Below, in pieces: positions 1-54,810 of a stretch of 64,000 nt of DNA; the stretch's first letter is position 1; each line of letters starts with the position of its first letter. Source of the stretch: Cliona cf. orientalis (taxonomy: Eukaryota; Porifera; Demospongiae; Clionaida; Clionaidae); contig OZ005699.1 in assembly GCA_963930775.1 (NCBI GenBank), positions 5,601,501-5,665,500 of the forward strand, in the 5' to 3' direction. Below the pieces are notes generated by a model. The model searched no databases. It was not told the origin of the DNA and worked only from the letters and a program-made list of their open reading frames with translations. Position numbers and translations under genes: made by a program.

Positions 1-772
1 AATTATTATCTGTATAAGGTGGAGGTCTGTATGGATCACTGATGGAAGAGCAAGGGCAGTTTGATCTTCTGTGCAAGCTACTGTTTTCCGTCAAACCGCC
101 GACAAAACTCCAAATATGGTAATATGGTATACCAAATTGAGTTATGTTAATACCATCCATATCAATATGATTCAGGAATCGATGCTTATTGAAGGCATCT
201 GGACTTCCGACTTGATAGCCAATAATTTGGCCACACACCCTGCTGTATGGTACGCTGTCTGCTGTATAAGTTAAACTTGAGCAGCTTCCTTCAGTTGAAT
301 ATTTCCTCCCACAAGCTCTCACTCCGCTGGTGTTGTATTCCCTCCAGGCAGATGGACACTGCTGTGAAGGGTCAGTCATATTCAGGAAAGCTATGCGATG
401 CCACTGCCCTGCTCCACAGTACAATTGAATTTGCAAGCTAGTTAATTTTTTCTGTATGCTCTCATCAACCTGAAACCCTGTGAAAGGTTCTTTATTTGCT
501 TGACTTAGTCTGTAACTTAGAGCGGAAAATATTATTGCTGTGAGTGTAATTGCTGCTAGTACTACGACCAACAGTATCATAGCAATCAGAAGCTTCTTTA
601 TCCTGAAAAGTTCAGTGTTCGTTTTTAACCCATTCACGGTTTTGTTATTTTTACTATAGTTTCCAGCTTCAGTTGGCACCATCTCTCTATTGCAATCCTT
701 GTACTGGGTGAATTCTTTGTGTGTCTGATATGCTACGTTACTTTTGTAGACAACTACATCCTCAAGCTCCAT
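1..772 (-). CDS. R1: type II membrane receptor-like protein, partial (3' end beyond window)
   Basis: The frame is open from an ATG at 772 (protein begins MELED) to the left window edge, about 257 codons, so the C-terminal part is missing only because the window ends. A charged cytoplasmic tail of about 55 residues precedes one transmembrane helix (LLIAMILLVVVLAA region). A short stalk and the first half of the family ectodomain follow, with CGAGQW, LNMTDPSQQCPSAWREY, ACGR, GSC, VCGQ and CPC. Seven of the 12 family cysteines are visible. There is no N-terminal signal peptide, so the topology is type II. The closest paralogue is R3, and the upstream flank is also shared with R3. Ligand and function are unknown. 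The family assignment is strong; the sequence resembles no named domain I can recall with confidence. Confidence 0.8.
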   Translation of the reverse strand, partial: MELEDVVVYKSNVAYQTHKEFTQYKDCNREMVPTEAGNYSKNNKTVNGLKTNTELFRIKKLLIAMILLVVVLAAITLTAIIFSALSYRLSQANKEPFTGFQVDESIQKKLTSLQIQLYCGAGQWHRIAFLNMTDPSQQCPSAWREYNTSGVRACGRKYSTEGSCSSLTYTADSVPYSRVCGQIIGYQVGSPDAFNKHRFLNHIDMDGINITQFGIPYYHIWSFVGGLTENSSLHRRSNCPCSSISDPYRPPPYTDNN

Positions 773-1319
773 GATTATACATGTAATTATTTTTGATATC
801 TTTTTTGTATCTATCTGAGTTTACCTTGTGCTGGGATGCTTTTATTTACAATTGTCTAGTTGTTTATTTCACACCTATACCCTTCTGTCCACTATTTGGG
901 GTGTAGTCATAGGGATGAGCTTGTTTTGCTGTATCATAGGCTGAAGAGTGGTAATTACTAACAACCTTATCTCTGTTGTGACGATCGAATCTGATAAAGT
1001 GTTGTTTATAGTTTATCACTTTAGTCTGTTATCGTTACTGTAATACTATTATGCTGTAAATTTTGTGATTGGAGTATGAATGACCTTTTATGGCAGTTTC
1101 GTGCATGGTAGTATTAACGCATATGTATATATGTAGTAGCCCAATGATCTTTTACCATGATATAGTGATAGTTTATGGTAACCTTATCTCTGTTGTAGTG
1201 GTTGATAAAATTATGTTGTTCACTCATCTTATTCTCTACCTAAAACATGCATTGCACACAGAATTTCCTTAAGTCTTAGGATGTGGTGAGACTGGTTTAC
1301 ATGCACTACAATAATATGC
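773..1319. repeat. Spacer duplicated upstream of R3
   Basis: There is no convincing coding. From about 830 to 1,220 it matches 5,170-5,560 (shared landmark gtagtcatagggatga at 902 and 5,253), the region upstream of R3. R1 plus its flank and R3 plus its flank are therefore copies of one duplicated module. Confidence 0.7.
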
Positions 1320-2170
1320 AAATTACACTGCAGCACAGTGGTTTTACATCATCCAGTAGTGGATCATTGGAAGTAGTATCACCTGAATCACAGTAATAGT
1401 TATCACCAATGGACTGTGGAGGACTTAGTCTGGCTGCTGTTAGAAGCACAAGGACAATTTGCATAGTGTATGACCATCAACATAGCTCCAAATATGATAG
1501 TGCATGTTGAGCTCCTGTAGCGATATTGATGCCATCGAATTCTATTTGTGTGTTACTAAAGTGGTGAAAAGCGTCCAGATTTTGAATTTGATAGCCAATA
1601 ACCTTTCCACACACTCGGCTATATTGATGGCTTATGAAGTATTATTTCATTGCGCAGCTTCTAATCGAGGTAGTTGGTCTTCCACAGGCCCTTATTCCAC
1701 CACTCCCTCCAGGCTGATGGACACTGCTGTAAAGGGTCACTCATGCATGTTGAGATGAGTCATTTAATTGATACCACAATCCTAGTCCACAGTTTGACTG
1801 GGGCTCCATGTCAGTATTCTGTAATAAATATATGATCATTAACTTTAGTATCAATTGAAAGAGTTTCTGGGATGCATTGTTGCGAATCATAGCAAGCTGT
1901 GTTACCACTGCTACTATATCATCATTAGATTTATTTATTTGGCTTGAAAGTGTTGATTGTTTCGAGTTTAGTGGACTGATTGTGAATACAGAGAGCACCG
2001 TCAATATAATTGTGATTAGTATCACAATCATAATGATCCAAATGTTATTTTGTTTAGTATACTGTTTGAATTACTGGCCTTAATTGGTGTCTTCACTTCA
2101 TTAAGATCACGTACTATGTGATGCAACGTTGCTATTGTAGACAACCCGATCCTTAAGCTCTATAATTTTC
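1320..2170 (-). pseudogene. psi-R2: degenerate receptor copy
   Basis: Minus-strand homology to R5 covers almost the whole gene. The tail resembles MELED but its ATG has become ATA near 2,160. The transmembrane/stalk segment (MIVILITIILTVLSVFTIS, then NNASQK) is readable at 1,741-2,031, followed by CGLGLWYQ, and then the frame is lost through indels around 1,740-1,760. The ectodomain continues in other frames to about 1,320, where the CEGTCC region is scrambled and the C-terminus missing. It is a clear pseudogene; upstream and downstream flanks match those of psi-R4 and R5. Confidence 0.8.
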
Positions 2171-2968
2171 CACTTGATGTATTTTACACTGCACTATTTT
2201 GTAGAAGGATCTAAATATTCAGTAAGTCCACAATAAGAGAGGCATGTATGTTTAGTAGCTTAATCTTTGATCTTCATTGTATAGTGATCATATATGAGCA
2301 ATGTTTTATGTGCACTTACTAACAGGCTTAATAATTGAAAGTGTATGATGAGATATTGTAATGATTTTCTATATGTAGTTGTAGGTTGTGAGTCACGGCA
2401 TGGAGTAAAAAATTGGTAGGATAAAAGAAACGGGCTTGCCAAGCAGTATGCACTTAGAAGAGAGTAATAAAATCAGCATGCTGTCGTGCTGCGCTTCATA
2501 AGTATAGACATCTATGACTTAAGAGCATAATATTATAATTAGGCATATATTTCTTGACTCCATGTGCACTCATCTAAGATTTAAGCGTGTAATTCAATTT
2601 CTGGTTTTCGATAAGTATGTGTGCTAAAAAATCTGCATCTATATGGTATATGTGCAGTTACGTAGCTCAAAATATATTTCTTCTATTTCCCTTTGATGTA
2701 GCTATGTGATCATAATGCTTTTTACTTTTGACTTACATCAGTGATTTCAGTAAGCATGGATAGGGATTTCTCATATTATGTGAACAAAGTGCTTCATGTG
2801 TGAAATGTTTCCATTGCCATGTCGAATGTGATCTATCCATGTTAGTAAGTGGATTCAGTAGTGGAAGTGTAGTTATAGTGTCTACGTTATGGTCATTACA
2901 TATTATTCGGGGTGAGCCTGAGCGAGCCCCGAATACACGAGAGACAGGAAGCAGTTTTATATGTATAA
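2171..2968. repeat. Spacer shared with regions upstream of psi-R4 and R5
   Basis: It matches 6,962-7,760 and about 9,560-10,300 (common blocks include ttgatcttcattgta and the later gtagggatttctcat). No gene is visible. At 2,896-2,945 there is a short hairpin with gtgagcctgagcgagccccg. Confidence 0.6.
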
Positions 2969-2970
2969 TA

Positions 2971-4143: not shown

Positions 4144-5034
4144 CTACTGTACATAAATCTCAAGCAGTTCGATTGGAGTATCTTCATTATCTGTAGATTC
4201 ATCAGCACAAATACTCACTTCAATGGTATCAGTTGTTGGAGCAGGAAGCTGTACACTGAACCATGGGGGAGAGTTGGTACCAATGCAGCAGGTACCTTCA
4301 CACTGCTGGCCATCCCACAGTGGATCGTTTGGAAAGATCTGATTATCTTGGAATCTATTTGTTGGATTGCCAGATTCACAGTAGTGATTTTCACCAATAG
4401 ATAATGGGGGATCAGGGCTATCAGTTGTAGAACAAGGGCAGTTATAGTCTGTAGCTGACTCACTGAAGCCAGCAACGTAGCTCCAAACATGATTACGTTT
4501 TGCTCCTCTTGTTATGTTAACACCATCAAAATCTATTTTCTCAGTATAGGGGCGGGCAAAAGCATCTGGACTTGCAACTTGATAGCCAATAACCCTTCCA
4601 CACACTTGGCTGTATTGATGGCTTGCGAAATAATACTTAGTTGCACAGCTTCCAATCGAGGTAGTTGGTCTTCCACAAGCCCTTATTCTATCATTGTTGT
4701 ACTCCCTCCAGGCAGATGGGCACTGCTGTGATGGGTCAGTCATGTTCAGGAAAGCTATGCGATGCCACTGTCCAGCTCCACAATATAATTGAATTTGCAA
4801 GCTGATTAATTTTTTCTGTATGCTCTCATCAAGCTGAAACCCTATGAGAGATTCCTTATTTGCTTGACTTTGTCCATAACTTAGAGCGGAAAGTATTATT
4901 GCTGTGAGTGTAGTTGCTGCTAATACTACTACCAACAGTATCATAGCAATCAGTAGCTTCTTTATCCTGAGAAGTTTAGTAAATCCATTCAAGGTTTTGT
5001 TATTTTTGCTATAGTTAGCTTCAGTTGGCACCAT
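4144..5034 (-). CDS. R3: type II membrane receptor-like protein (N-terminally shortened)
   Basis: The open frame of 296 residues starts MVPTEANYSK, an internal methionine in R1. The transmembrane helix is at about residues 27-51 with a short stalk at 52-84. The complete ectodomain (85-296) has CGAGQW, WREY, RACGRP, GSC, VCGRVIGYQ, GINIT-type sequon, WSYVAG, CPC, PLWDGQQCEGTCC, PPWFSVQLPAP and the family C-terminus ELLEIYVQ. All 12 cysteines are present. The ancestral start (MELED, ATG at 5,126) is still visible upstream but is cut off by a 2-bp TA insertion that creates a stop. Translation would therefore have to begin at 5,034, leaving a tail of about 26 residues. It may be functional with a shortened tail or an early pseudogene. 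Confidence 0.75.
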   Translation of the reverse strand: MVPTEANYSKNNKTLNGFTKLLRIKKLLIAMILLVVVLAATTLTAIILSALSYGQSQANKESLIGFQLDESIQKKLISLQIQLYCGAGQWHRIAFLNMTDPSQQCPSAWREYNNDRIRACGRPTTSIGSCATKYYFASHQYSQVCGRVIGYQVASPDAFARPYTEKIDFDGVNITRGAKRNHVWSYVAGFSESATDYNCPCSTTDSPDPPLSIGENHYCESGNPTNRFQDNQIFPNDPLWDGQQCEGTCCIGTNSPPWFSVQLPAPTTDTIEVSICADESTDNEDTPIELLEIYVQ

Positions 5035-5126
5035 CTCTCTATTGCAATCCTTGTACTGGGTGAATTCTTTGTGTGTCTGATATGCTATACGTTACTTTTA
5101 TAGACAACTTCATCCTCAAGCTCCAT
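5035..5126 (-). other. Disconnected ancestral N-terminus of R3
   Basis: An ATG at 5,126 opens MELEDEVVYKSNV in frame with R1, but TA at about 5,086 is doubled to TATA relative to R1 and the frame stops at once. Downstream bases again match the R1 tail codons up to the present R3 start. Confidence 0.7.
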
Positions 5127-6134: not shown

Positions 6135-6961
6135 CCACTGTACTATTGTATATAAATTTCAAGTAGATTTGTGGGAGTATCTTCGTCATTCAAAACAAAT
6201 GTTCACTTCAATCATGTCAGTTGTAGGAGCTGGAAGCTGTACACTGAACCATGGGCGAGAAAATCTGTACCAGGAGGTCTAGTGCAGTAGTTGTTTTCAC
6301 ACTGCTGGCCATGGCATCCCATAGTGGATCATTGGAAACAGTATCGCCTGAATCATAATAGTAATTGTCACCAATGGACTGTGGAGGCCAATAACCCTTC
6401 CACACACTCGGCTGTATTGATGGCTTGTGGGGTATTATTTCGTTGCACAGCTTCCAATCGAGGTAATTGGTCTTCACAAGCCCTTATTCTATCAATTTTG
6501 TACTCCCTCCAGACTGAAGGGTCACTCATGTTGAGGTGGGTCATTTGATACCACAGTCCTGATCCACAGTTTGACTGGGCTCCATGTCAGTATTCTGTAG
6601 TAAAAATGATATAAGGTCGTTAATTTTAGTGTCAAATTGAAAGAATATCTGGGATGCATTGTTGCGAATCATAGCAAGCTGTGCTACTACACGTAGTTGT
6701 AGTTGAGTTGGTTTGAAAGTGTTGACTGTTTTGAGTTTAGTTGACTGATTGTGAACAAAATTAAAGACCACCGTCATGCAATACAATAGTGATTAGATGA
6801 AATATCACAATCATGATGATCAAAATGTTGGTTTTATTTAGTATACTGTTTGAATTTAATTTGCGTCTTCACTTCATTATGATTGATGGCTGTGTTTACA
6901 TGCTGTTGCTGAATGCCCTCTGTGTTTTGCTGTTGTAGACAACTGGATCCTCAAGCTCCAT
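6135..6961 (-). pseudogene. psi-R4: degenerate receptor copy
   Basis: An ATG at 6,961 still reads MELEDPVVYNSK, but the transmembrane segment is frame-shifted. The stalk (readable at 6,541-6,786), the WREY region and the middle ectodomain are in different frames. About 180 bp around GINIT/WSYVAG are missing, so the text jumps from VIGYW to PPQSIGDNYYYDSG. The C-terminus EIYIQ is recognisable near 6,150. It is most like psi-R2 and R5. Confidence 0.8.
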
Positions 6962-8471: not shown

Positions 8472-9521
8472 CTACTGTACATAAATCTCAAGCAATTCAA
8501 TTGGAGTATCTTCATTATCCGTGGATTCATCAGCACAGATACTCACTTCAATTAGATCAATTGTTGGAGCAGGAAGCTGTACACTGAACCATGGAGGAGA
8601 GTTGGTACCATTACAGCAGGTACCTTCACACTGCTGGCCATCCCACAGTGGATCGTTTGGAAAGATCTGATTGTCTTGGAATCTATTTGTTGGATTACCA
8701 GATTCACAATAGTGATTTTCACCAATAGATGAAGGAGGACTAGGGCTATTAGTGGTAGAACAAGGGCAGTTAGAGTCTGTAGCTGACTCACTGAAGCCAG
8801 CAACGTAGCTCCAAACATGATCACGTTTTGCTCCTCTTGTGATACTAACGCCATCAAAATTTATTTGCTCACTGTGAAGGTGGGCAAAAGCATCTGGACT
8901 TGCAACTTGATAGCCAATAACCCTTCCACATACTCGGCTGTATTGATGGCTTGCGAAATACTGTTTTATTGCGCAGCTTCCAGTTGAGGTAGTTGGTCTT
9001 CCACAAGCCCTTATTCCATGAGTGCTGTACTCCCTCCAGGCAGATGGACACTGCTGTGAAGGGTCACTCATGTTGAGGTGGGTCACTTGATACCACAGTC
9101 CTGGTCCACAGTTTGACTGGGGCTCCATTTCAGTATTCTGTAGTAAAATTGATATAAGGTCGTTAATTTTAGTGTCAAATTGAAAGAATTTCTGAGATAC
9201 ATTGTTGCGAATCATAGCAAGTTGTCTTAGCACTGCTACTATGTCGTTATTTGCTTTATTTAGTTGACGTGAAAGTGTTGACTGTTTCGAATTTAATTGA
9301 CTGATTGTGACTACAGAGAGCACCGTCAATATAATTGTGAGTATCACAATCATAATGATCCAAATGTTCTTTCTGTTTAGTACTCTGTTTGAATTGCTGG
9401 CCTTAATCAATGTCTTCACTTTATTATGATTAAGGATCACATTTGCATGTTGTTGCTGAATGTCCTCTGTACGTAGATATGCAACGTTGCTGTTGTAGAT
9501 AATCGGATCTTCAAGCTCCAT
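8472..9521 (-). CDS. R5: type II membrane receptor-like protein, full length
   Basis: The protein has 349 residues when begun at MELED. This start was chosen by homology to R1; an in-frame ATG nine codons upstream at 9,548 is possible. The cytoplasmic tail (1-52) contains YNSN and YLRT tyrosines but not the paired ITAM-like pattern of other subclasses. The transmembrane helix is at about 53-74 (IWIIMIVILTIILTVLSVV). The stalk (75-135) has NNVS and heptad-like LNSKQSTLSRQLNKANND. The ectodomain (138-349) has all 12 cysteines, the LNMSDPS sequon, WREY, VCGRVIGYQ, WSYVAG, LWDGQQCEGTCC and PPWFSVQLPAP, and ends LLEIYVQ. No defect is seen. Role: probable cell-surface receptor or adhesion molecule (inference from topology). 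Confidence 0.85.
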   Translation of the reverse strand: MELEDPIIYNSNVAYLRTEDIQQQHANVILNHNKVKTLIKASNSNRVLNRKNIWIIMIVILTIILTVLSVVTISQLNSKQSTLSRQLNKANNDIVAVLRQLAMIRNNVSQKFFQFDTKINDLISILLQNTEMEPQSNCGPGLWYQVTHLNMSDPSQQCPSAWREYSTHGIRACGRPTTSTGSCAIKQYFASHQYSRVCGRVIGYQVASPDAFAHLHSEQINFDGVSITRGAKRDHVWSYVAGFSESATDSNCPCSTTNSPSPPSSIGENHYCESGNPTNRFQDNQIFPNDPLWDGQQCEGTCCNGTNSPPWFSVQLPAPTIDLIEVSICADESTDNEDTPIELLEIYVQ

Positions 9522-10541: not shown

Positions 10542-11720
10542 CTACTCAATCATGCTTTTGTAATTTATGTGAAAATTAATACAGCTGCACACATGTTTAC
10601 AAATATTGTAGCTCAAAGTCTCATTAGCCACTACACTACTGTACATAAATCTCAAGCAGTTCAATTGGAGTATCTTCATTATCTGTGGCTTCATCAGCAC
10701 AAATATACTCACTTCAATTAGATCAGTTGTTGGGGCAGGAAGCTGTACACTGAACCATGGGGGAGAGTTGATACCAGTGCAGCAGGTACCTTCACATTCT
10801 TTGCCATCCCACAGTGGATCATCAGAGTACAGCTTATTCATAAAACTGTTGTCTGGATTGCCAGATTCACAGTAATAATTGTCACCAATAGATGATGGAG
10901 GATCAGGGCTATTAGTGGTAGAACAGGGACACTTTAAAGCTGCCATCAATACAGCCGAGTATGTGGAAGGCTTATTGGCTATCAAGTTGCAAGTCCAGAT
11001 GCTTTTGCCCAGCTTCATAGTGAACAAATAAATTTTGACGGTGTTAACATCACAAGTGGAGCAAAACGTGATCACGTTTGGAGCTATGTTGCAGGCCTGA
11101 ATGAGATGCAGCAGCAGTTGACTTGTCGAATAGTATCTTGTTGCACAGCTTCCAGTCGAGGTAATTGGTCTTCCACAAGCCCGTACTCCATCAATGTTGT
11201 ACTCCCTCCAGACTGATGGACACTGCTGTGAAGGATCACTCATGTTGAGATGGGTAACTTGTTGCCACAGTCCTGGTCCACAGTTTGACTGGGGCTCCAT
11301 GTCAGTATTCTGTTGTATCAGTGATCGTAGGTCATTTATTTTAGTGTCTACTTGGAGCAATATTTGTGATATGTTATTGCAAGTTGCAGTAGGTAGTGTT
11401 TGTGTTGCTGTTGCGTCACTGTCAGGTTCACTCTGTTGGCTTTGAACTGTTGACTGTTCAGCTCTCGGTTGATTATAGGCGGCCACAGACAATGCTAGTG
11501 ATGCAATAGCGATTATGAGAAGTATTACCATCATAATAATTATCACCATAAGAAGTATTTTGCTTGGTGCTCCATTTGAATAACCTTGTTTATGAACCTC
11601 TTCATTTCTCTTGGTCTCATGGTTGTTATTAATCCTAGTTGAGATCGTTGCGAGTGTTGAGTATGTCACATTGCTATTGCCCTGTGAGTGGTTTAGGGCA
11701 TCGTATGTAGCATTATCCAT
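10542..11720 (-). CDS. R6: rearranged, chimeric receptor copy with internal inversion and shifted C-terminus
   Basis: Open for 392 residues from MDNATYDAL (the start matched to other MDN members; an alternative ATG lies 21 bp upstream). The tail carries YDAL and YSTL with tyrosines at 6 and 20, a canonical YxxL-x10-YxxL spacing. The transmembrane helix is at about 55-80. The stalk end and the start of the ectodomain (QNTDMEPQSNCGPGLW) are R5-like, so the gene is a mosaic. Residues about 201-261 are read from a segment inverted relative to all paralogues, replacing the VCGRVIGYQ to WSYVAG part with unrelated sequence. After IEVSI a TA duplication near 10,704 shifts the frame, so the family C-terminus (ELLEIYVQ, whose stop would lie near 10,640) is replaced by an unrelated tail. 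Probably non-functional as a classical family member, although the reading frame is uninterrupted. Confidence 0.7.
   Translation of the reverse strand: MDNATYDALNHSQGNSNVTYSTLATISTRINNNHETKRNEEVHKQGYSNGAPSKILLMVIIIMMVILLIIAIASLALSVAAYNQPRAEQSTVQSQQSEPDSDATATQTLPTATCNNISQILLQVDTKINDLRSLIQQNTDMEPQSNCGPGLWQQVTHLNMSDPSQQCPSVWREYNIDGVRACGRPITSTGSCATRYYSTSQLLLHLIQACNIAPNVITFCSTCDVNTVKIYLFTMKLGKSIWTCNLIANKPSTYSAVLMAALKCPCSTTNSPDPPSSIGDNYYCESGNPDNSFMNKLYSDDPLWDGKECEGTCCTGINSPPWFSVQLPAPTTDLIEVSIFVLMKPQIMKILQLNCLRFMYSSVVANETLSYNICKHVCSCINFHINYKSMIE
10938..11120 (+). other. Inverted ectodomain segment inside R6
   Basis: On the plus strand this stretch reads QYSRVCGRLIGYQVASPDAF, then INFDGVNITSGAKRDHVWSY, then VAGLNE. 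This is the central part of the family ectodomain, while the surrounding gene is on the minus strand. The ends carry short complementary runs (agctgc near 10,938; gcagca near 11,110). Confidence 0.9.
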
Positions 11721-12626: not shown

Positions 12627-12884
12627 TCACTTCGCTTGCCCCCTGCTGCATTGTGATTGTTGTATGCATTTAGGACACACAAAAGTAGGGGATAGCAAGT
12701 ATAACTGCACGTGTATAGCTATAGAGTGGAATTGCTTGTAATGAGGCCCACAGTTGCATACATACATGTACTTGTGCTCTTTGCTGTACTCATTTCTCTG
12801 AAAATTTGTTGAAATTGTTGTTGAGTATGTTTCATTGCTATTGCTTAGTGAGTGGTTTAAGACATCATATGATGCATTGTCCAT
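12627..12884 (-). pseudogene. psi-R7: isolated N-terminal fragment of a receptor
   Basis: An 85-codon frame begins MDNASYDVLNHSLSNSNETY, almost the same as the R6 tail, with YDVL and a second tyrosine 14 residues later (YSTT). Homology ends after about 35 codons; no transmembrane helix or ectodomain follows. It is a truncated duplicate. A short hairpin with gcaggggg/ccccctgc lies at 12,617-12,652. Confidence 0.7.
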
Positions 12885-16061: not shown

Positions 16062-16151
16062 CTTTTTGATGTAGCGTGCTTTTAGTCGTTTCTTGGATGC
16101 TTGTGGACGAAGTGAAGTCAGGATAAAATCACCAACTATCTAGCTGTTCCT

Positions 16152-19684: not shown

Positions 19685-20665
19685 TCATTGTACGTATATC
19701 TCAACTAGCTCAACCGGAACATCTTCATCATTGGTGCCCTGGTCACAACAAATGCTCACTTCAATTGCATCAGTTGTTTGGAGGAAGTTGTGCACTGAAC
19801 CATGGGGGAGAGTTGGTGCCATTTCCCACAGTGGATCATTAGAGTACAATTAATTTATGCATGAAACGACTGCCTGGATTACCAGATTCACGGTAGTACC
19901 TATTATTGACTGATAATGGAGGACCAGCTACTTGTTCATTATCAGTAAAGCATGGGCACTTACATAGAAGCTGTGAAGAAGAATTTTGATTAGAATTTCA
20001 GCAACATAACTCCAGATGTGGTTATGATTCGCTCCATGAGTTATGTTGATACCATCTAGATTCATGCGATTACTACTGGGAGGATATGGTTGAAAGACAT
20101 CTGGACTTGATAGCCTATTATTCTTCCACACACTCGACTGTACTGTTGATAGGTATTGTACTGTATAACTGCCTGGTGAGTTCTCTGGTCTTCCACAAGC
20201 TCTCACTCCACTTTCAGTGTACTCCCTCCAGACAGATGGACACTGCTGTGAAGTATCACTCATATTAAGATGGATTAGTCGATGCCACAGTCCTGGTCCA
20301 CAAGCCATCTGTGTATGTACGTTCAGATATTGTTTCAGGAATGAGATAGAGGATCTAGAACTTTCAAATTTAGTGTCAAGCTGGCTGATATTCTTGGATA
20401 TATTGCTGTATGCTGAGTTAAATTGTGTTTTTCCTAAATTTGCTATATTCCTGGATATGTTGAGTTGAGCTGCAGCAAGTTACATTTCCACTAATTTCAT
20501 TACTCTCTGGAATATATTGCTAAAGCTGATTCTGTTGCAGTACTTGTATTTTCCAACTTGCTCACCATTTCAGTTTGTTGAGATGCTCCACGAACGAAGG
20601 TTGTCACAGACAGTGCAATCGACAAGACTGAAATTAGCAAAAGTGTCACCATAGAGATTTCTAAT
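19685..20665 (-). pseudogene. psi-R9: degenerate receptor copy lacking the cytoplasmic tail
   Basis: The C-terminus EIYVQ with a stop at 19,685 and most of the ectodomain are recognisable. A 126-codon frame at 19,928-20,308 holds CGPGLWHR, SDTSQQCPSVWREY, RACGRP, GINIT and WSYVA. The CEGTCC segment is deleted, several indels shift the frame, and the stalk region contains stops. The transmembrane region near 20,580-20,660 remains but no MDN-type tail or ATG is present. It is most like R11. Confidence 0.8.
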
Positions 20666-20729: not shown

Positions 20730-21857
20730 TTACTGTACGTATAATTCTATCAGTTCAACTAGGATATCTTCATCACTGGTATCCTCATCACAACAAATGT
20801 GTACTTGTAATACATCCATTGTTGGAGCAGGAAGCTGTACACTGAACCATGGGGGAGAGTTGGTACCATTGCAGCAAGTACCTTCACACTGCTGGCCATC
20901 CCAAAGCTTGTCATCTAGGAATAGGTGGCCTGGTGTGAAGCCACTCATTGAATTTCCTGATTCACAGTAATGATTGTTACCAATAGATGGTGGAGGTTCT
21001 TGTCCATTAGTACTTGAACATGGACATGAGTGCATTGAAGTGCCATATTCGTACACACCAGCCACATAGCTCCAAATATGCTGTGTACCATGAGTAATGG
21101 TAACACCATCTACACTTTGATCACTGTCTGATCTAAATGCATCGGGACTGGCAACTTGATAGCCGATAATCCTACCACATACTCTGCTGTACTGATTACA
21201 AGTAGAATATTGTACACCTGGGCAACTCCCCAATGTGGAGACTGGTCTCCCACAGGCTCTGACTCCACTACTGTTGTACTCCCTCCAGGCTGATGGACAC
21301 TGCTCAGCAGGGTTGCTCATATTCAGGTAGGCCACTCTATACCAGGGTCCTGGTCCACAGTACAAATGGGTATGTAGCACTGAAACTATAGAATCCCTGA
21401 ATCTGTCATAAAGCTGAGTGATGGTGCTGGATATGTTGGTTTGAGTGGCAGCAAGTTGTGTTTCCACCAGTTTTATGTCATTATGGGATACGTTATACTG
21501 AATTGTGAAGATTTCCTTTAGCTCAGATATTTTATTGTTGGTGCTGTTTATCTGCTCTAGCACCCTGGACTGCTGAGATGTCAGTTGGCTGTAGGTGGTC
21601 ACCGACAATGCAATTGACATGAATGTAAATAGCACAAGTACTGCTAGCGCAATTATCAGTGCTAAATTAAATTTAGTAATGATTTTTGAATTTTTTATAT
21701 CGATGTGTGTCACTCCTTTTGCTGTACTTTCATCGATGTTTGCTCTACTTTCATAATTTGGCTCATTGTTGGTTTGAGTTGTTCTGGGTCTCGAGTACGT
21801 AGTATTAGTGTTGATTGATGTCAAATCTAATCCTTCATACGTATGATCGTTATCCAT
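20730..21857 (-). CDS. R10: type II membrane receptor-like protein, full length
   Basis: 375 residues from MDNDHTYEGL. The tail (1-63) has tyrosines at 7 (YEGL), 21 (YSRP) and 35 (NYES); the first two keep the family spacing of 14, but the second lacks the +3 aliphatic residue. The transmembrane helix is at about 64-86. The stalk (88-165) has several NxS/T sequons (INST, YNVS, TNIS) and heptad-like hydrophobics. The ectodomain (167-375) has CGPGPWYR, LNMSNPAEQCPSAWREY, RACGRP, VCGRIIGYQ, WSYVAG, CPC, CEGTCC and PPWFSVQLPAP, and ends LIELYVQ. All family cysteines are present, with one more in the ICCDE motif. The ectodomain subtype is shared with psi-R15 and R16. No defect seen. Confidence 0.87.
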   Translation of the reverse strand: MDNDHTYEGLDLTSINTNTTYSRPRTTQTNNEPNYESRANIDESTAKGVTHIDIKNSKIITKFNLALIIALAVLVLFTFMSIALSVTTYSQLTSQQSRVLEQINSTNNKISELKEIFTIQYNVSHNDIKLVETQLAATQTNISSTITQLYDRFRDSIVSVLHTHLYCGPGPWYRVAYLNMSNPAEQCPSAWREYNSSGVRACGRPVSTLGSCPGVQYSTCNQYSRVCGRIIGYQVASPDAFRSDSDQSVDGVTITHGTQHIWSYVAGVYEYGTSMHSCPCSSTNGQEPPPSIGNNHYCESGNSMSGFTPGHLFLDDKLWDGQQCEGTCCNGTNSPPWFSVQLPAPTMDVLQVHICCDEDTSDEDILVELIELYVQ

Positions 21858-30399: not shown

Positions 30400-31479
30400 T
30401 TATTGAACAAATATCTCAATTAGTTCAACTGGAACATCTTCATCATCAGTATCCTCATCACAACAAATACTCACTTCAATTGCTGCATCAGTTGTTAGAG
30501 CAGGAAGCTGTACACTGAACCATGGGGGAGAGTTGGTACCAGTGCAGCAGGTACCTTCACACTGCTGCCCATCCCATAGTGGATCATTGGAAGTAGTATC
30601 ACAATAGTAGTTGTCACCAATGGACTGTGGAGGACTGGCTTCACTGTCAGAAGCACAAGGACAATCTGTGTTTCTATGACCAGTAACATAGCTCCAAATA
30701 TGAATGTGCTGAGCTCCTGTAGTGATATTGATGCCATCGAACTCTATCTGTGTAGGGCGAAAAGCGTCTGGAGCTCTATACTGATAGCCAATAACCCTTC
30801 CACACACTCGACTGTACTGTTGATAGGTAATGTAATTTACAGATGCACAACTGCCACTTGAGGTAGTTGGTCTTCCACAAACTCTTACTCCAAGAGTGTT
30901 GTATTCCCTCCAGGCAGATGGACATTGCTGTGAAGGATCACTCATATTTATGTAGGCTAATCGATGCCACAGTCCTGGTCCACAAAGTACTTGTGTACTA
31001 AGTCTTAGATACTGTGTAAGCAATGCTCCAGGAATAAAATTTTCAAGTTTGCTGTCAAGCTGATTGAGATTCTGTGATATGTTACTTTGAGCTATCACTA
31101 ATTCCAATACTTTCTGTGATAAATTCATTTGAATGGTGTCCAATTGACTAACTAAAGCAGATTTGGTGTCATTATTTGAATTTTCCAGGTGACTTAGGAC
31201 TTTAGACTGCTCAGATGCTAAGCGATTGAAGGTTGTCACAGATAGTGCAATTGATATGAGTGTAATTAGCAGAATTATCATCATCATAATAATCATAACT
31301 ATGTTAAATTTTGTAGTATTTGGTGATTCTGGTACGTTTATTTCCTTTACTTCTTTGAAAGCATGATAACGAATTTCTTCTGTTTCATAACTTGGGTTAG
31401 TCTCTGTCTCAATTACGGAGTATGCTTCATTGATACTGATTTGAGTCAGATCTACTTCATCATGCATAGTGTTCTCCAT
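30400..31479 (-). CDS. R13: type II membrane receptor-like protein, full length (MEN subclass)
   Basis: 359 residues from MENTMHDEV; an in-frame ATG four codons upstream is possible. The first ITAM-like tyrosine is replaced by His6, the second is kept (AYSVI, Tyr20), and NPSYET follows. The transmembrane helix is at about 58-82. The stalk (83-164) has NLS and NIS sequons with leucine heptads. The ectodomain (166-359) has CGPGLWHR, INMSDPSQQCPSAWREY, RVCGRP, VCGRVIGYQ, GINIT, WSYVTG, CPC, LWDGQQCEGTCC and PPWFSVQLPAL, and ends LIEIFVQ. The segment between PPQSIGDNYYC and PLWDG is about 10 residues shorter than in R11. All 12 cysteines present; no defect. Confidence 0.87.
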   Translation of the reverse strand: MENTMHDEVDLTQISINEAYSVIETETNPSYETEEIRYHAFKEVKEINVPESPNTTKFNIVMIIMMMIILLITLISIALSVTTFNRLASEQSKVLSHLENSNNDTKSALVSQLDTIQMNLSQKVLELVIAQSNISQNLNQLDSKLENFIPGALLTQYLRLSTQVLCGPGLWHRLAYINMSDPSQQCPSAWREYNTLGVRVCGRPTTSSGSCASVNYITYQQYSRVCGRVIGYQYRAPDAFRPTQIEFDGINITTGAQHIHIWSYVTGHRNTDCPCASDSEASPPQSIGDNYYCDTTSNDPLWDGQQCEGTCCTGTNSPPWFSVQLPALTTDAAIEVSICCDEDTDDEDVPVELIEIFVQ

Positions 31480-37395: not shown

Positions 37396-38246
37396 TTATT
37401 GCACAAATATCTCAATTAGTTTAACTGGAACATCTTCATCAGCAGTACGTTGATCACAACAAATACTCACTTCGATTGCATCAGTTGTTGGAGCAGGAAG
37501 CTGTACACTGAACCATGGTGGAGAGTTGGTACCATTGCAGCAGGTAGTACCTTCACACTGCTGTCCATCCCACAGTGGATCATCAGAGTATAATGTCTTT
37601 TCATAGCCACTGCCTGGATTACCAGATTCACAGTAGTACCTGTTACCAATTGATGGTGGGGGACCAGCTACTTGTTCATTATCAGTAGAGCACGGACACT
37701 TAAATACAGACTGTGACGAAGCATTCTGATTAATTCCAGCAACATAGCTCCAGATGTGGCTACAATTCGCTCCATGAGTGATGTTGATACCATCTAGATT
37801 TGTGCAGATGTTATGAGGAGGATATGGTTGGAAAGCGTCTGGAGTTGCATATTGATAGCCAATGATTCTTTCACACACTCGACTGTACTGTTGATAGCTG
37901 ACAAACTGTACAGATGGACAACTACCTGTTTTGCTATCTGGTCTTCCACAAGCTCTTACTCCACTCTCATTGTACTCCTTCCAGGCAGGTGGACACTGCT
38001 GTGAAGGGTCACTCATGTTTAGGTAAACTAATCGATGCCACAGTCCTGGTCCACAGTGTATTTGTACAATAAGTCCTATAGATGCTGTATTAGCATTTCA
38101 ATTTTAGTATCAATCTGATTGAGATTTTGTGATATGGTGCTTTGATCTATCACTACTTTCTGGGACAAATTCATTTGAATGGTGTCCAGTTGAGTAAATA
38201 AAGCTGATTTGGTGTCATTATTTGAATCATACGTAGCGTTATCCAT
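37396..38246 (-). pseudogene. psi-R14: duplicate of R11 lacking the membrane segment
   Basis: The ATG at 38,246 reads MDNATYD and then jumps directly to the stalk (SNNDTKSAL). The rest of the tail, the transmembrane helix and the first part of the stalk, about 100 codons, are deleted. Near 38,075 a TA doubled to TATA shifts the frame and makes a stop just before the ectodomain. From 38,016 a 206-codon frame covers the ectodomain from MSDPSQQCPPAWKEY to LIEIFVQ, with VCERIIGYQ replacing VCGRIIGYQ and an extra Thr in CEGTTCC. It cannot make a membrane receptor. Confidence 0.85.
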
Positions 38247-38333
38247 GATCTTATAGAAGTTTTAAATATCTCAGGAAAGTAATCCTATCGACTTGAACTA
38301 TACCTGAACCGTAAACTTTTGGAAGGTTTTCTT

Positions 38334-38977: not shown

Positions 38978-39331
38978 TTACTGTATATATAAGTCAATCA
39001 GTTCAACTGTGATGTCTTCATTACTAGTACTTTCATCGCAAAAAATGCTCTCTTCAATTGCATCAGTTGTTGGAGCAGGAAGCTGTACACTGAACCATGG
39101 GGGAGAGTTGGTACCAGTGCAGCAGGTACCTTCACACTGCTGCCCATCCCAGAGCTTGTTCTCTAGGTATAGGTGGCCTTGTCTGAAGTCACTCATTGAA
39201 TTTCCTGATTCACAGTAATAATTATTACCAATAGATGGTGGAGGTTCTTGTCCATTAATATTTGAGCGTGGATATGAGTGCATTGAAGTGCTATATTCGG
39301 TCACACCAGCCACATAGCTCCAAGTTTGCAT
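38978..39331 (-). pseudogene. psi-R15: C-terminal receptor fragment
   Basis: A 117-codon frame matches the last half of the R10/R16 ectodomain: WSYVAGVTEYSTSM, PPPSIGNNYYCESG, LWDGQQCEGTCC and PPWFSVQLPAP, ending ELIDLYIQ. The CPC pair is lost (reads YPRS). Homology stops abruptly at about 39,322, so tail, membrane helix, stalk and the N-terminal half of the ectodomain are missing. Confidence 0.8.
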
Positions 39332-39935
39332 GCTGAAGGCTATATAGGCTATGGTAGAAATACTTATTTAGGGCATCAGCTTTGCACTCACTGGTTTCCA
39401 ATTTTGTACCATTATGCCGCAGAGTAGGCATAGAAGTGGATTTTTGATTAAGAGACCTTACCAAAATGTTCTAGCATCTGTATTGTTCAATTTATTGAAG
39501 AATGATATTGCTTGCTCTTCCTTAATAATGCCGTTGTTTGATTTTTCTTAGCAGTATACTTTGCTCGGTCAGCTACTTAAATTTGTGAGCCCTCCAATTG
39601 GCTCATCAACAGTTACGTATTTAATTTACGGTATCAAGGAGTTAGTAGCTATTGGCTACAGTGTGATTCTTTGCAGGGGCTCATGATCTAGGGGGTGGTA
39701 TAATATTGCACTAGTTCTTTTATGCGACATAGTATAGGAGACGTCCACCATGTAGCCATCCCCGCTGCACCAGTATAGTTTACTACGGGTAGCCACCTCA
39801 TCGATCACCCACCTTCCATGCAAAATTTCTGGATCAGTGCCTGCATTGCTTGGTAGTTGACTGCTTTATCCTGTATCTGTATAGGAATTTGCAATCATCT
39901 GGCATATTACCCACTGTGCACAACTTTCATATTGT
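39332..39935. other. Spacer upstream of psi-R15
   Basis: No gene or repeat recognised. Confidence 0.3.
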
Positions 39936-43314: not shown

Positions 43315-44436
43315 TTACTGCACATATAAATCAATCAGTTCAACTGTGATGTCTTCATCATTAGTACCTTCATCGCAACAGATGTTCACTTCAATTGCAT
43401 CAGTTATTGGAGCAGGAAGCTGTACACTGAACCATGGGGGAGAGTTGGTACCAGTGCAGCAGGTACCTTCACACTGCTGGCCATCCCAGAGCTTATCCTC
43501 TACGTATAGGTGGCCTAGTGTGAAGCCACTCATTGAATTTCCTGATTCACAGTAGTAATTATTACCAATAGATGATGGAGGAGGTTCTTGTCCATTAGTA
43601 CTTGAGCATGGACATGAGCGCATTGAAGTGCTGTGTTCATTTTCACCAGCCACATAGCTCCAAATATGCTGTGTACCATGAGTAATGGTGATGCCATCTA
43701 CACTTTGGGAACTGTTTGATCTGAATGCATCAGGACCGCCGATTTGATAGCCGATAATCCTACCACACACTCGGCTATATCGATTAAAAGTTGAGTATTG
43801 TACACCTGGACAACTTCCTGAAGCTGAGACTGGTCTCCCACAGCCCCTAACTCCACCACTGCTGTACTCCCTCCAGGCTGATGGACACTGCTCAGCAGGG
43901 TTGCTCATATTCAGGTAGGCTATGTGGTACCATAAACCTGGTCCACAAGACGTCTGGATTTGTAGACTGGTATGTTGTGATTGCGCTAAGAGAAAGGTAT
44001 TTAATGTACCTAGCAGTTCAGTAGAAGATTTTGATATGTTGAGCAGAAGTTCTTTATTATTTTGGCACACACTACACTGAGGTCCAATGATTTCTTGTAA
44101 TGTATCATTGCTGAGTTTATCAATCTTATTCAGAATCTTGGTCTCTGCAGATGATAATCGGGTGTAGATAGCCACAGATAGTCCAATTGTTAGGATATTA
44201 ATTAGCAAGAGTATTACCATCACGATAATCAGAATCATAAAAAATTTTCGTGCTCTTTTTGAATTGTTTCCGTTTGTCTCCTTTTGCTCGCTTTGCTGTA
44301 ATGTCCTGAGTTCATAACTTGGATTTTTCTTTGTTGGGATAGTTGATGTCATTGGATCGTCTGCACTGCTGTATTCTGGTGTCATAACTTCAGTTCTATT
44401 GTCTGTGGCTTTATTATTGAATATAGCTTTACTCAT
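43315..44436 (-). CDS. R16: type II membrane receptor-like protein with divergent tail, full length
   Basis: 373 residues from MSKAIFNNKA. The tail (1-65) lacks the MDN/MEN start and the paired tyrosines; it keeps PEYSS and PSYELRTL. The transmembrane helix is at about 66-90 (FFMILIIVMVILLLINI). The stalk (91-165) contains two extra cysteines (CSVC), which could form disulphides between chains. The ectodomain (167-373) has CGPGLWYH, LNMSNPAEQCPSAWREY, RGCGRP, VCGRIIGYQ, WSYVAG, CPC, LWDGQQCEGTCC and PPWFSVQLPAP, and ends LIDLYVQ. It is closest to R10 and psi-R15 in the ectodomain. No defect in the frame. The promoter-like block just upstream is inverted compared with R11, so expression may be altered. 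Confidence 0.85.
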   Translation of the reverse strand: MSKAIFNNKATDNRTEVMTPEYSSADDPMTSTIPTKKNPSYELRTLQQSEQKETNGNNSKRARKFFMILIIVMVILLLINILTIGLSVAIYTRLSSAETKILNKIDKLSNDTLQEIIGPQCSVCQNNKELLLNISKSSTELLGTLNTFLLAQSQHTSLQIQTSCGPGLWYHIAYLNMSNPAEQCPSAWREYSSGGVRGCGRPVSASGSCPGVQYSTFNRYSRVCGRIIGYQIGGPDAFRSNSSQSVDGITITHGTQHIWSYVAGENEHSTSMRSCPCSSTNGQEPPPSSIGNNYYCESGNSMSGFTLGHLYVEDKLWDGQQCEGTCCTGTNSPPWFSVQLPAPITDAIEVNICCDEGTNDEDITVELIDLYVQ

Positions 44437-44451
44437 TAAAGGTCACGATAT

Positions 44452-45108: not shown

Positions 45109-45110
45109 TA

Positions 45111-49238: not shown

Positions 49239-49389
49239 ACATACAAATAATTGTCAGCATGATAACTCCTAATTTTCGTCCAAGGCTAATCTTATAGGGT
49301 GTGCCTTCTCTATGTGTAGCTATGTTTCACATGCATGTTGTTTTTATTAAGCCTTATAAATGGTATTATTATGAAGCATGTACATTATA

Positions 49390-49568: not shown

Positions 49569-49651
49569 TATATACAGTAAGAGGTCATCAACTGTGAAAA
49601 AGTATGTAAGGCCATATAAAATTTCATTCCCGCCCGTCCCAGTTTTTACAG

Positions 49652-50371
49652 GCCATAAGTGATGTTGATACCATCTAGATTTATATGGTTGCCATTGGGA
49701 GAATTTCGTTTAAAAGCATCTGGCGCTTCAAATTGATATCCAATCACTCTTCCACATATCCTGCTGTACTATTGATAGGTTATGTACTGTATAGAAGCAA
49801 AGCCTATTGTTGTGGTTGGTCTTCCAAAAGCCCTTACTCCACTCTCATTGTACTCCCTCCAGGCAGATGGACACTGCTGTGATGGATCACTCATATTGAG
49901 GTATAGACTAATTGATGCCATAGTCCTGGTCCACAGTGCATTACACTAAGTCTTAGGTACCATGTTAGCAATGGAATGTAATTTTTAAAGGTTTGTATCT
50001 TACTTTCTGGGATAAATTAATTTGAGTTGACTAACTAAAGCTGACCTAATGTAATTATTTGAATTTTCCAGCTGACTTAGCACTTTAGACTGCTCAGATG
50101 ATAAGCATTGAAGGTTATCACATACAATGCATTGATATGAGTATAATTAGCAAAAGTATATCACTATCATAATTATAGTCATAACTGTGATATATTTTAT
50201 AGTATTTGGTGATCCTGATACGTTTATTTCCTTTACTCCTTTCAAAGCATAATAATGTCTTCTATTTTTTTTGAGCTCATAACTTGGGTTAGTCTCTGTC
50301 TTAATTGCTGAGTATGCTTCATTGATAGTGATTTGAGTCAAATCTACTTCATCATATGTAGTATTCTCCAT
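49652..50371 (-). pseudogene. psi-R17: receptor copy lacking its C-terminal half
   Basis: The start MENTTYDEV is intact with paired tyrosines (TTYDEV and AYSAI, 14 apart) and NPSYEL. The transmembrane region is shifted by indels near 50,150 and the stalk is in several frames. The first half of the ectodomain (SDPSQQCPSAWREY, then GR, then IGYQF and DGINIT) is readable at 49,652-49,930. Homology ends at 49,652, so WSYVAG to the C-terminus is missing. Closest to R13 in the tail. Confidence 0.8.
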
Positions 50372-51320: not shown

Positions 51321-53716
51321 ATCGTTTTGCCCCCCTCTTGATCTCATATTAGCTTGCTATGGCTCCCCTTGGGAACTCCCTAGCTTCCCCCCCCCCTAAA
51401 ATTTGTGGGTGTGCATGAATACTAATACATTCCAGAGTGACCTCTATAAATGAATAGATACCGTTACACAGGTCATGAACCATACGAACAGCTATTACAC
51501 ATGACATATACGCAGTTCGATACTCTCCCTCACCCTCTTCATATACTCTTGGTCACATGCATGTATTACTACATTATAATATAACTATAGAGTGTGCATG
51601 CATGCATGCAGTACATGTAATTAACTGTGTGCAAGGGATTATTGCAGTTACAGTATGTGTTTCATAAGGAACCTCTCACATAATATACCATGCCAAAAGC
51701 TATGTTTCTTCACAAGTACCTTATATATTCTAATACAGGTGACACCCTAACTTTGAGATCTACACAATGTTTTCGGTTCTAGTTTGTCTCTATACAAAAG
51801 TCCCATAGACTAAGTGTGCAATTATTTTCTTAATTGCACACTTATTGGCTTAGTAATTGCACACTTACTGACCGGTAGCGGTGCGCGCTGGACCAATCAG
51901 ATCGCACGTACAATCATAGCAACACTCATCAGCCCAGCAACGAACAAGTCCTGACCGATAGCGTCGCGCACTGGACCAATCAGATCACCCATACGATCAT
52001 AGTAACAAGCACTAGCCCAGAAACGAATGAATCCTTGAATAGTGGATAAGCTGGCCACCATGGCATTGTGGAGATCGACAGACTCAGGCTTTGTGTAAGT
52101 CATCGAGCTAGACCGTTCCTCTTCTTCTTCTTCTTGTATCTATGCGTCTGCTCTGCTGTCAGAATGCTGAGCTCTAGAATGAGCGAGCGAAACGGCGACA
52201 GACTCATTATAGTACTATTCCTTATGCATATGATAGTAAGGTATGGTCAGAACTTCAGCTAGCACAATAGCTTCTTATGACTGTTGAACTCATTGACCAC
52301 TTACCAACATTGATCTTACAGCAACATTCTCGTGGTTGGCCTTGTGCCTCAGCTACAACAATGGCTGCCCCGCAGCCCCTTGGCTAACTGTACTATATGA
52401 TTAACTTGTTATGTATCAGAAAATGCACTCGGCTTCGCCTCGTGCAATTACTTTCCTTCTAATACATAACTCATGCAATTATTTCCCAAATTGCACTCGG
52501 ATTCATTTCCTATACTAATTTAACCTTTTCGGACATCAATTATTTTTATTTACCGTACCCTCGTGAAAGAGGGCCCACTACGGAATATCAGCCCACCCTC
52601 CACTTTGAGCTCAATTTTCTGCTAAGGTCTAGTGTTTACTTGAATATGCGCCTATGTGTAGCTGCCCTCGAAAACACAGCTCAAATGGCTGGTTTATGTG
52701 GACTGAACTTCGAATAGTCTATGATTGTTAAGTAATCTGCTAAACAGCCGTAAAACTAAGTCTAGCTAACTTTTTGCATGTTTATGCCATGTTTCAGCAC
52801 AAATAAACTGCTAGCGATCGTAGCCACGCCCACTTAATACGTCTGCATCAACGACGCACGGTAAAGTATTGTGGTCAATGGGCGCCTCCTTAGTTTAGGT
52901 GCCCTTTGACCTGCTCATGAATTTTCTATTCTAACTGAAGGTGCCTGCGTGATGTGATGATCTTGATGTGGGAAGAATTAATGAACAGCATATTAGGTAC
53001 AATCGCTAGAAGAATTACAAGGTGTACATCAATTTTCAAAAATGAAGCATCTTGCAAAACCATTACAGTTTAGTATGGTAGTCAAGTGTGATTAATGCTT
53101 ACAGACACTGATGGCCAGATACCGCATGCCTTGTGTTGACCACATGTCATCTTACATTCACCCAGCCAGTGAGAGCTGCTAGCTAGATCGGGGCTACTAC
53201 TACATCTGGGCTACTCATTGGAATAAACTCATGATCTGCTTCACAGGCACTGGGTCTGGTGTATTTGCTAAAAAAATCAGTATAAAATTTCATAGGTGGA
53301 GTTGTCCTACAGGAATTTTTTAAACACAAACATTTTTGTTACAAAATTGATTACACGAAAATTTCAGGACCTATATATGAGTTTCATAAGGAATCTCTCA
53401 TATATACCATACCGAAAGCCATTGTTTTCACACAGCTTTCCGAAATAATTTATTGGTGTATATAGGAAGATAATGAACCTTGGGAGAGGGAATGATAATA
53501 TTATTATTACGTACAATCACTAGACATATTATTGAGTGGATATCAACTGTGAAAAATGAAGTAATCAAGTGTGTTAAATTACATGTTCCTGGAGCCGTAT
53601 TACAAAATAAATACAATATGTGGAGACATTCAATCAGCCACATGTTACTACAATATTGTCCTTTCATGGTATAGCAATATAGTGTAGTTAGTACCCAATG
53701 TTACAAGTTCAGAGGA
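51321..53716. other. Long spacer with an 82-bp tandem duplication
   Basis: The segments 51,869-51,950 and 51,951-52,032 are diverged direct copies (ctgaccggtagcg / ctgaccgatagcg; ggaccaatcagat). The segment 52,400-52,510 has repeated tgcactcgg/cctcgtgcaatta motifs. No gene is supported. Confidence 0.5.
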
Positions 53717-54810
53717 TTATTGCACAAATATCTCGATTAGTTCAACTGGAACGTCTTCATCCTCAGTATCCTGATCACAACAAATGCTCACTTCAATTGC
53801 TGCATCAGTTGTTGGAGCAGGAAGCTGTACACTGAACCATGGGGGAGAGTTGGTACCAGTGCAGCAGGTACCTTCACACTGCTGGCCGTCCCACAGTGGA
53901 GTAGTATCACCTGAATCACAATAATAGTTGTCACCAATGGACTGTGGAGGACTGGCTGCTCTATCAGAAGCACAAGGACAATCTGTGTTTCTATGACCAA
54001 CAACATAGCTCCAAATATGAATGTGCTGAGCTCCTGTAGTGATATTGATGCCGTCGAATTCTATCTGTATATTAGCAACCTGGCGAAAAGCATCTGGACT
54101 ACTATACTGATAGCCAATAACCCTTCCACACACTCGACTGTACTGTTGATAGGTAATGTAATGTATAGATGTACAACTGCCACTTGAGGTAGTTGGTCTT
54201 CCACAAACCCTTACTCCAAGAGTGTTGTATTCCCTCCAGGCAGATGGACATTGCTGTGAAGGATCACTCATATTTAGGTAGGCTAATCGATGCCACAGTC
54301 CTGGTCCACGGAGTACTTGTGTACTAAGTCTTAGATACTGTGTAAGCAATACTCCAGGAATAAAATTTTCAAGTTTGCTGTGAGATTCTGTGATATGTTA
54401 CTTTGAGCTATCACTAATTCTAATACTTTCTGTGATAAATTCATGTGAATGGTGTCAAATTGACTATCTAAAGCTGACCTGATGTAATTATTTGTGTTTT
54501 CCAACTGACTTAGTATTTTAGACTGCTCAGATGCTAAGCGATTGAAGGTAGTCACAGACAGTCCAATTGATGTGAAAGTAATTAGCAAAAGTATCACCAT
54601 CATAGTAATCATGACTGTGTTGAATTTAGTGTTCGGTGATTCTGATGCATTTATTTGCTTTACTCCTTTCATAGCATGATGATCAATATCTTCTGTTTTC
54701 TGGCTCTCATAAGTTTGCTTAATCTTTGTCTCAGTTGCTCGTAGTCTTGAGTATGTTTCATCAGTACTGATTGGAGTCAGATCTACTTCATCATACGTAG
54801 CGTTATCCAT
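53717..54810 (-). pseudogene. psi-R18: chimeric receptor copy broken by a 10-bp deletion
   Basis: The first part (54,331-54,810, 159 codons) has the MDN-type tail MDNATYDEVDL with Tyr6 (YDEV) and Tyr20 (YSRL), a transmembrane helix and a stalk. The second part (53,717-54,349) carries a complete ectodomain ending LIEIFVQ. Compared with R13, about 10 bp are missing near 54,375 (gctgtgagattctg here, gctgtcaagctgattgagat in R13), which shifts the frame in the stalk. The first ectodomain cysteine is also changed (RGPGLW for CGPGLW). The tail is R11-like but the stalk end and ectodomain are R13-like. It looks recently inactivated, or is polymorphic. Confidence 0.82.

Follow-up and report, generated by a model that had tools for sequence, protein, structure and literature searches.

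Putative type II receptors with activation-motif-like tails in a tandem gene cluster of the demosponge Cliona cf. orientalis

A single-orientation cluster of receptor-like genes

The window analyzed here is a 64,000-nucleotide stretch of the demosponge Cliona cf. orientalis (C11:5601501-5665500, C11 being contig OZ005699.1), drawn from a 216.8 Mb assembly of 149 contigs that served for our genome searches. It holds a tandem cluster of genes for putative single-pass membrane receptors, some of which carry tails resembling an immunoreceptor tyrosine-based activation motif (ITAM). By comparing ten open reading frames (ORFs) of the window with the window itself by tblastn, we mapped 16 copies of one gene family between positions 2 and ~54984, all on the minus strand. 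This uniform orientation had been proposed in an earlier reading of the same DNA (hereafter, the original prediction), and our mapping bears it out, as the plus-strand matches all trace to an inverted segment of one frame, ORF g, serving as query or target. The original prediction had also described a cluster of about 18 copies, eight usable or open and ten broken. The cluster and the eight open copies stand, whereas the totals become 16 copies and eight broken ones; the lower copy number probably arises because fragments were split differently. Four of the 16 copies have an uninterrupted frame from Met to stop within the window (8472-9521, 20730-21857, 27255-28397 and 30400-31479). The remaining open copies comprise one that crosses the window edge, two with 5' damage and one with an inversion, and the broken copies are truncated, stopped or frameshifted. 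This mixture of open and broken copies supports the birth-and-death pattern that had been suggested.

Read in order along the window, all on the minus strand, copy 1 (1..772) is open, has a MELED-type tail and ends at its 3' side outside the window, at C11:5601262. Copy 2 (1327..2163) is broken, with eight stops in the aligned stretch; copy 3 (sequence f; 4144..5091) retains an open ectodomain, helix and most of its tail, with a frameshift after the first 13 tail codons; and copy 4 (6146..6961) is broken, with several frames and stops. The intact copy 5 (a; 8472..9521) has a non-ITAM tail containing YNSNVAY. Its neighbor, copy 6 (g; 10639..11720), combines a strict ITAM-like tail, YDAL-x10-YSTL, with an inversion in the ectodomain and a frameshift near its end. 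Direct comparison places this micro-inversion at 10942..11105 on the plus strand, a 164-bp segment that matches the opposite strand of copy 5 (8787-8950) at 91% identity and across which the frame stays open. Copy 7 (12771..12884) is a tail fragment only, and copy 8 (19688..20652) is broken. Copies 9 to 11 are intact: copy 9 (b; 20730..21857) has the tail YEGL-x10-YSRP, in which the second motif half is lost; copy 10 (c; 27255..28397) has a relaxed ITAM-like tail, with V at +3, whose motif stretch (28329..28382) reads YDDVGLTPISTDETYSRL; and copy 11 (d; 30400..31479) has lost the first tyrosine (MHDEV...YSVI). In copy 12 (37399..38252) the ectodomain is open and the tail and helix are mostly missing and out of frame, and copy 13 (38981..39364) consists only of the C-terminal half of an ectodomain. 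Copy 14 (e; 43315..44442) is open, with a tail that contains NPSYEL and no ITAM; it lacks the Met used by its relatives P0087 and P0099, and an in-frame Met exists upstream. Copy 15 (49649..50371; tail YDEV-x10-YSAI) is broken by five stops, and copy 16 (53720..54810) has a frameshift between its tail (YDEV-x10-YSRL) and an ectodomain whose first Cys is changed to Arg.

The cluster continues past both window ends. A wider scan (5571501-5695500, 124 kb) detected 26 copies in 25 merged groups, one group holding two, all on the minus strand, and three further minus-strand matches at 5698689-5707331 extend the span to ~5.590-5.707 Mb. The single-orientation cluster therefore comprises at least 29 copies over 117 kb. 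Genome-wide, a search with copy 10 returned at least 112 matching stretches, some of them pieces of one gene; this figure is a lower bound because 108 of 709 candidates were scored. Twenty-two of these matches begin within the first 52 query residues and lie mainly in this cluster and in a second one at C6:5.46-5.52 Mb. The other 90 start past residue 60, leaving the tail uncovered, with big groups at C11:6.2-6.9, C4:2.49-2.65 and C9:1.43-1.61 Mb, and many of them are open frames near 290-310 codons. DNA patterns for two ectodomain motifs also recur through the genome, with 42 exact matches for CEGTCC (2 for the reversed control) and 149 for PPWFSV (9 for the reversed control). The full extent of the cluster and the genome-wide family, like the ITAM-like tails and the re-pairing of tails with ectodomains described below, go beyond the original prediction.

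A 12-cysteine, predicted beta-sandwich ectodomain behind a membrane helix

Full copies are single open frames that encode a tail, a membrane helix, a stalk and a 12-cysteine ectodomain. The hydropathy maximum sits between a tail of ~50-70 residues and the stalk, supporting a predicted type II design with a single N-terminal membrane anchor and a C-terminal ectodomain. The components on which the original prediction had based this design, namely the tail, one hydrophobic segment, a sequon-bearing stalk and ectodomain motifs such as CGPGLW and WSYVAG, are present in the copies. Its 12 ectodomain cysteines are likewise conserved, each in 55-57 of 57 aligned rows, and a 13th is kept in 45 of 57.

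The ectodomain appears to represent a large family without a name, with 2381 homologs at E values up to 1e-3. No Pfam model scored above its cut-off in the four receptor proteins scanned, and their weak rows all fall before the ectodomain, in the tail, helix and stalk. In a survey of 57 members, covering the 25 most frequent of 131 weak families, the family seen most often was DUF6377, in 17 members (best E 0.00047), followed by CPW_WPC in 12 (best E 0.0038). Neither the four proteins nor this survey yielded a confident match to a housekeeping family, and a search of PDB sequences gave no match to the receptor. C-type lectin and fibrinogen domains were considered and rejected, as neither produced a row (E up to 1 for C-type lectin) in the four receptor proteins, in the isolated ectodomain or among the 25 of 131 weak families. 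Together with the structure models, which are all-beta but for one three-residue helix, these results agree with the earlier statement that the ectodomain carries neither signature.

The two ectodomain models, including that of copy 10 with two preceding residues (27258..27917, minus strand), are beta sandwiches. Their fold neighbors include carbohydrate-binding modules, which rank among the best, and Eph ligand-binding and MAM domains. Both of the latter bind cell-surface proteins, and this likeness, together with a large, fast-turnover tandem family that includes broken copies, would suit allorecognition or cell-adhesion proteins that discriminate self from non-self between sponge tissues. 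We consider such a role improbable.

Some relatives depart from the receptor layout. Homologs P0110 and P0115 contain two ectodomains each and a short hydrophobic start in place of the receptor tail; relatives of this type are perhaps secreted forms. Additional relatives with the same ectodomain lie at C16:2.28, C15:0.80, C14:6.15 and C3:9.50 Mb, again with a short hydrophobic start where that region is visible.

ITAM-like motifs in the tails

Tail statistics were computed from the 120 closest of the 2381 homologous proteins, 112 of which had usable tails after a tail filter. The consensus tail of the aligned relatives, MDNxTYDxxxLTPxxxDETYSRL, contains two YxxL/I/V-type half-motifs. The corresponding pattern, Yxx[LIV]-x(6-12)-Yxx[LIV], occurs in 78 of the 112 tails, with 19 of these depending on V at a +3 position, and the strict form, Yxx[LI]-x(6-12)-Yxx[LI], occurs in 59. 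Among 77 non-redundant tails the motif is found in 48, whereas 200 shuffles average 1.0 and reach at most 4; the shuffles assume that homologs are independent, with only an 80% filter applied beforehand. The gap between the half-motifs is exactly 10 in 68 of the 78 motif-bearing tails. For column entropies, 113 tails passed filtering and 99 fell into the main class, leaving 68 non-redundant sequences and 65 columns; there, the two tyrosines (Y1, 58 of 64; Y2, 60 of 65) are the lowest-entropy columns after the start residues M and D, at 0.63 and 0.54 bits, respectively. Within the cluster itself, outside the window, the intact gene at C11:5684535 has a strict YEGL-x10-YSRL tail.

These constraints bear on two alternative explanations of the family. 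In the first, the proteins would be a structural or secreted matrix or lectin family, the membrane members a side branch and the tail motif devoid of a signaling role. The many genome matches that stop short of the query tail, among them the open frames near 290-310 codons, and the two-ectodomain proteins P0110 and P0115 are consistent with this. It leaves unexplained both the tighter constraint on the two tyrosines relative to the rest of the tail and the fact that the C11 and C6 clusters are filled with genes that possess a tail, helix and stalk, and we regard it as quite improbable. The strongest rival is endocytic sorting, in which uptake or phagocytic receptors would capture bacteria or macromolecules for filter-feeding cells and the tail tyrosines would act as YxxPhi and NPxY clathrin-adaptor signals. 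YxxL/I/V fits YxxPhi as well as it fits half an ITAM; moreover, NPxY occurs in 23 of the 112 tails and [NKS]PxY in 44, several ITAM-less tails retain NPxYEL, and the carbohydrate-binding modules among the best fold neighbors would suit a capture function. Sorting signals that act independently would require no set spacing, but the gap of 10 prevails. Apart from the start, no tail site is more constrained than these two tyrosines. We rate sorting as unlikely, if worth taking seriously. The uptake and signaling readings are not exclusive, as ITAMs can be used by phagocytic receptors.

An immunoreceptor tyrosine-based inhibition motif (ITIM) was also considered for these tails, but it did not stand out among the listed homologs, 120 of 2381; it occurs in 12 of the 77 non-redundant tails, within the range of shuffles (mean 6.8, maximum 16). 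A search pattern for the tail proved too loose, with 2653 matches against 4020 for its control. Separately, a repeated Y-x-x-N-x-A-Y motif, without an ITAM, is found in the tails of P0090, P0103, P0106, P0108, P0112 and the window copy at 8472-9521, on ectodomains near those of ITAM members.

Tails and ectodomains have exchanged partners

Several copies pair similar ectodomains with dissimilar tails. The DNA of copies a and f is 84.5% identical over a stretch that starts at coding base 412, with the first codon of the ectodomain, and ends ~195 bp downstream of the stop, whereas the first 411 coding bases give no on-diagonal alignment; synonymous divergence (dS) is 0.26 in the ectodomain and saturated in tail and stalk. 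For copies b and e, dS is 0.41 in the ectodomain, 2.3 in the tail and 0.96 in the membrane helix plus stalk, and homology starts ~8 codons before the ectodomain. Copy g has a strict ITAM-like tail, and its ectodomain DNA matches that of a and f, the match beginning 98 bases before the border in one case and at the border in the other, so that similar ectodomains sit on ITAM and non-ITAM tails within the window. In the remaining pairs compared (c/h, c/i, d/i and c/d), the alignment continues through the stalk/ectodomain border. A jump in synonymous divergence is not explained by selection alone, and recombination or gene conversion gives a better account of it.

The same pattern extends to the wider family. 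In a set of 119 proteins, window copies included, 42 of the 205 pairs whose ectodomains reach 80% identity have tail-plus-helix N-modules that are at most 45% identical. Ectodomains that are 85-89% identical can carry either a motif-bearing or a motif-free tail, as in P0080 with copy a and in P0095 with P0090, P0106 and P0108. On an ectodomain tree of 109 proteins, in which 42 of 106 inner branches are open and the N-module clusters hang on one single-linkage threshold, N-module type changes 12 times (minimum 8). Shuffled labels give 18.9 changes, so the N-module label is also clustered on the tree. Scoring the main N-module type against the rest gives 11 changes, at least seven of them forced by starred branches. 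These data show that tails have been joined to new ectodomains at the boundary between the two, as in paired receptors.

The ratio of nonsynonymous to synonymous divergence (dN/dS) for the ectodomain lies between 0.19 and 0.44 in the 28 pairs formed by eight sequences, two of which are ectodomains of broken copies. This indicates overall purifying selection, and no diversifying selection is seen over the ectodomain as a whole. Values above 1 are confined to three short comparisons (c/d, 1.93 in the tail; c/i, 2.72, and d/h, 1.82, in helix plus stalk), which are too short to weigh. The suggestion in the original prediction that this is a recognition or immune gene cluster is strengthened by the tails, by the swapping of modules and by the kinase described below. 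The purifying selection weakens a simple arms-race reading.

A SHARK-type kinase gene

Sequence matches indicate that the genome, which has 103 SH2 matches, encodes a SHARK-type SH2-ankyrin-SH2-kinase. At the candidate gene L056 (C18:99501-107500), read frame by frame, four of the five scanned frames match Pfam (SH2 plus Ank, Ank, SH2 and PK_Tyr), giving the order SH2, ankyrin repeats, SH2, tyrosine kinase on one strand. SHARK is described as related to Syk, with ankyrin repeats separating its SH2 domains (PMC4090447), and is reported to mediate ITAM-dependent signals in invertebrates (PMC5978004). Syk-family kinases have been reported in sponges (PMC9601881, PMC2820527). According to one of these reports, a worm Syk is without the ITAM-binding residues (PMC2820527), so the presence of a Syk-type kinase does not by itself point to ITAM receptors. 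Ancient ITAM-containing upstream receptors have been deduced from the distribution of Syk, as stated for cnidarians and bilaterians only (PMC5978004). Extending that deduction to sponges is a proposal of the present analysis.

Two SH2 exons on C8, examined as a Syk candidate, and three exons on C14 were rejected, since the former read like an SHP-2-type phosphatase and the latter like RasGAP; Pfam confirms SH2 for one of these exons. An array of single-frame SH2-tyrosine-kinase genes occupies C7:1.89-2.14 Mb (L028, L030, L033-L035, L038-L040, L045, L049 and L052). Several of its kinases have altered HRD/DFG motifs, for example VANFELARV at the DFG site, suggesting that the array is probably an expansion of kinases and pseudokinases.

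A candidate ITAM-coupled recognition system

We see about an even chance that the cluster encodes demosponge cell-surface recognition receptors read by Shark/Syk kinases, with a putative ligand, topology, tyrosine phosphorylation, kinase docking and immune role. Beyond the tail motif, the mechanism is inferred throughout. We speculate that the jelly-roll ectodomain, held on its stalk, binds an outside ligand, most likely a glycan or protein on microbes or neighboring cells, and that binding would cluster the signaling members. Clustering would lead to Src-type phosphorylation of the two tail tyrosines, which lie 14 residues apart (YxxL-x10-YxxL), and the phosphorylated tyrosines could then dock a Shark- or Syk-type kinase through its paired SH2 domains, setting off a defense, uptake or recognition program. 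ITAM-less members, with similar ectodomains, would signal differently or not at all. Copies would arise by tandem duplication and be lost by decay, and recombination at the stalk/ectodomain border would swap tails between ectodomains. A more specific proposal, that of a modular, paired-receptor-like sponge system in which one 12-cysteine ectodomain repertoire is recombined with ITAM-bearing and ITAM-less modules, the ITAM forms acting upstream of Shark/Syk, is possible but rather doubtful.

Several observations weigh against the reading as recognition receptors coupled to Shark/Syk. In the 124 kb scan the motif is kept in six of 26 copies. Three of the six are strict (10639-11720, C11:5680810 and C11:5684535), and only two are intact, namely copy 10, which is relaxed, and the strict C11:5684535; the sole strict motif of the window sits in the copy with the inverted ectodomain. 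Elsewhere the motif has lost Y2 (C11:5672652), Y1 (copy 11) or the second +3 residue (copy 9), and copies 5 and 14 have other tails. Conservation of the tail is partly due to common descent, and the 120 listed homologs, being the closest of 2381, over-represent the tail type of the query; in the genome search, the query's tail is not reached in 90 of 112 matches. The fixed 10-residue spacing favors paired docking, but it is also inherited. In addition, YxxL and NPxY double as endocytosis signals. The ectodomains give no sign of an arms race, with dN/dS below 1 in all 28 pairs. Finally, no Syk gene was identified; a single narrow pattern, DFGLSKAL, gave no match, which does not imply absence.

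Among known systems, FcgammaRIIA carries an ITAM in its own tail, and CLEC-2 and Dectin-1 are hemITAM C-type-lectin-like receptors. The sponge proteins resemble them in placing paired (or, in hemITAM receptors, single) YxxL/I half-motifs in the tail of a putative single-pass recognition receptor, and their predicted type II design is that of CLEC-2 and Dectin-1. They differ in an ectodomain that has no Pfam match above cut-off and is modeled as all-beta, in a spacing of 10 where 6-8 is commoner, and in the need for V at +3 in 19 of the 78 motif-bearing tails. Vertebrate paired receptors, the subject of PMC2413239 and PMC12447643, include KIR, Ly49, PIR and FcR-like proteins. The sponge family shares with such receptors clustered genes, closely similar ectodomains on different signaling modules, and birth and death. 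Similar ectodomains on different tails are found in the window in a/f, a/g, f/g and b/e. As a difference from vertebrate paired receptors, no clear inhibitory tail stands out among the listed homologs of the sponge family, whose ITIM count lies within shuffles. The SRCR and NLR expansions reported from sponges are likewise big sets of putative immune receptors (PMC10855680, PMC12909245). They are built from other domains, whereas the present family has no Pfam domain above cut-off. Drosophila Draper is a type I EGF-repeat receptor and in this respect differs from the sponge proteins, whose link to a kinase is conjectural. The Draper-Shark system offers a parallel in its SHARK-type SH2-ankyrin-SH2 kinase and ITAM-dependent signals (PMC5978004).

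The literature we found names no sponge ITAM receptor, which does not exclude that one exists in print. The family described here provides concrete, testable candidates for the upstream receptors of sponge Syk/Shark-type kinases near the animal base. If they act as proposed, ITAM-coupled recognition with interchangeable tails would be older than the immunoglobulin and C-type-lectin receptors that use it in vertebrates, or would have a separate origin.

Other features of the window and genome

Between cluster copies, the window contains long open frames on the plus strand (57163-63356) that resemble the polyprotein of a long terminal repeat retroelement, presumably of BEL/Pao type. A secreted-looking, histidine-rich frame of 382 codons lies on the minus strand at 14991-16139 and includes several AQHHFH[FI]HFHWKKA repeats. 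Its Pfam rows, the best being F_actin_bind (E 5.7e-17), look repeat-driven, and its product possibly binds metal. Elsewhere in the genome, CGASYAFS, which we take to be a silicatein-type motif, is encoded at two adjacent sites, and a third pattern match has Cys for Ser. Among the best 60 rows, the translated CGASYAFS exon matched silicatein alpha (6zq3) at 93.9 bits, ahead of 2vhs (CATHSILICATEIN) at 73.7 and the next at 72.8, indicating that the genome is most likely that of a siliceous demosponge.

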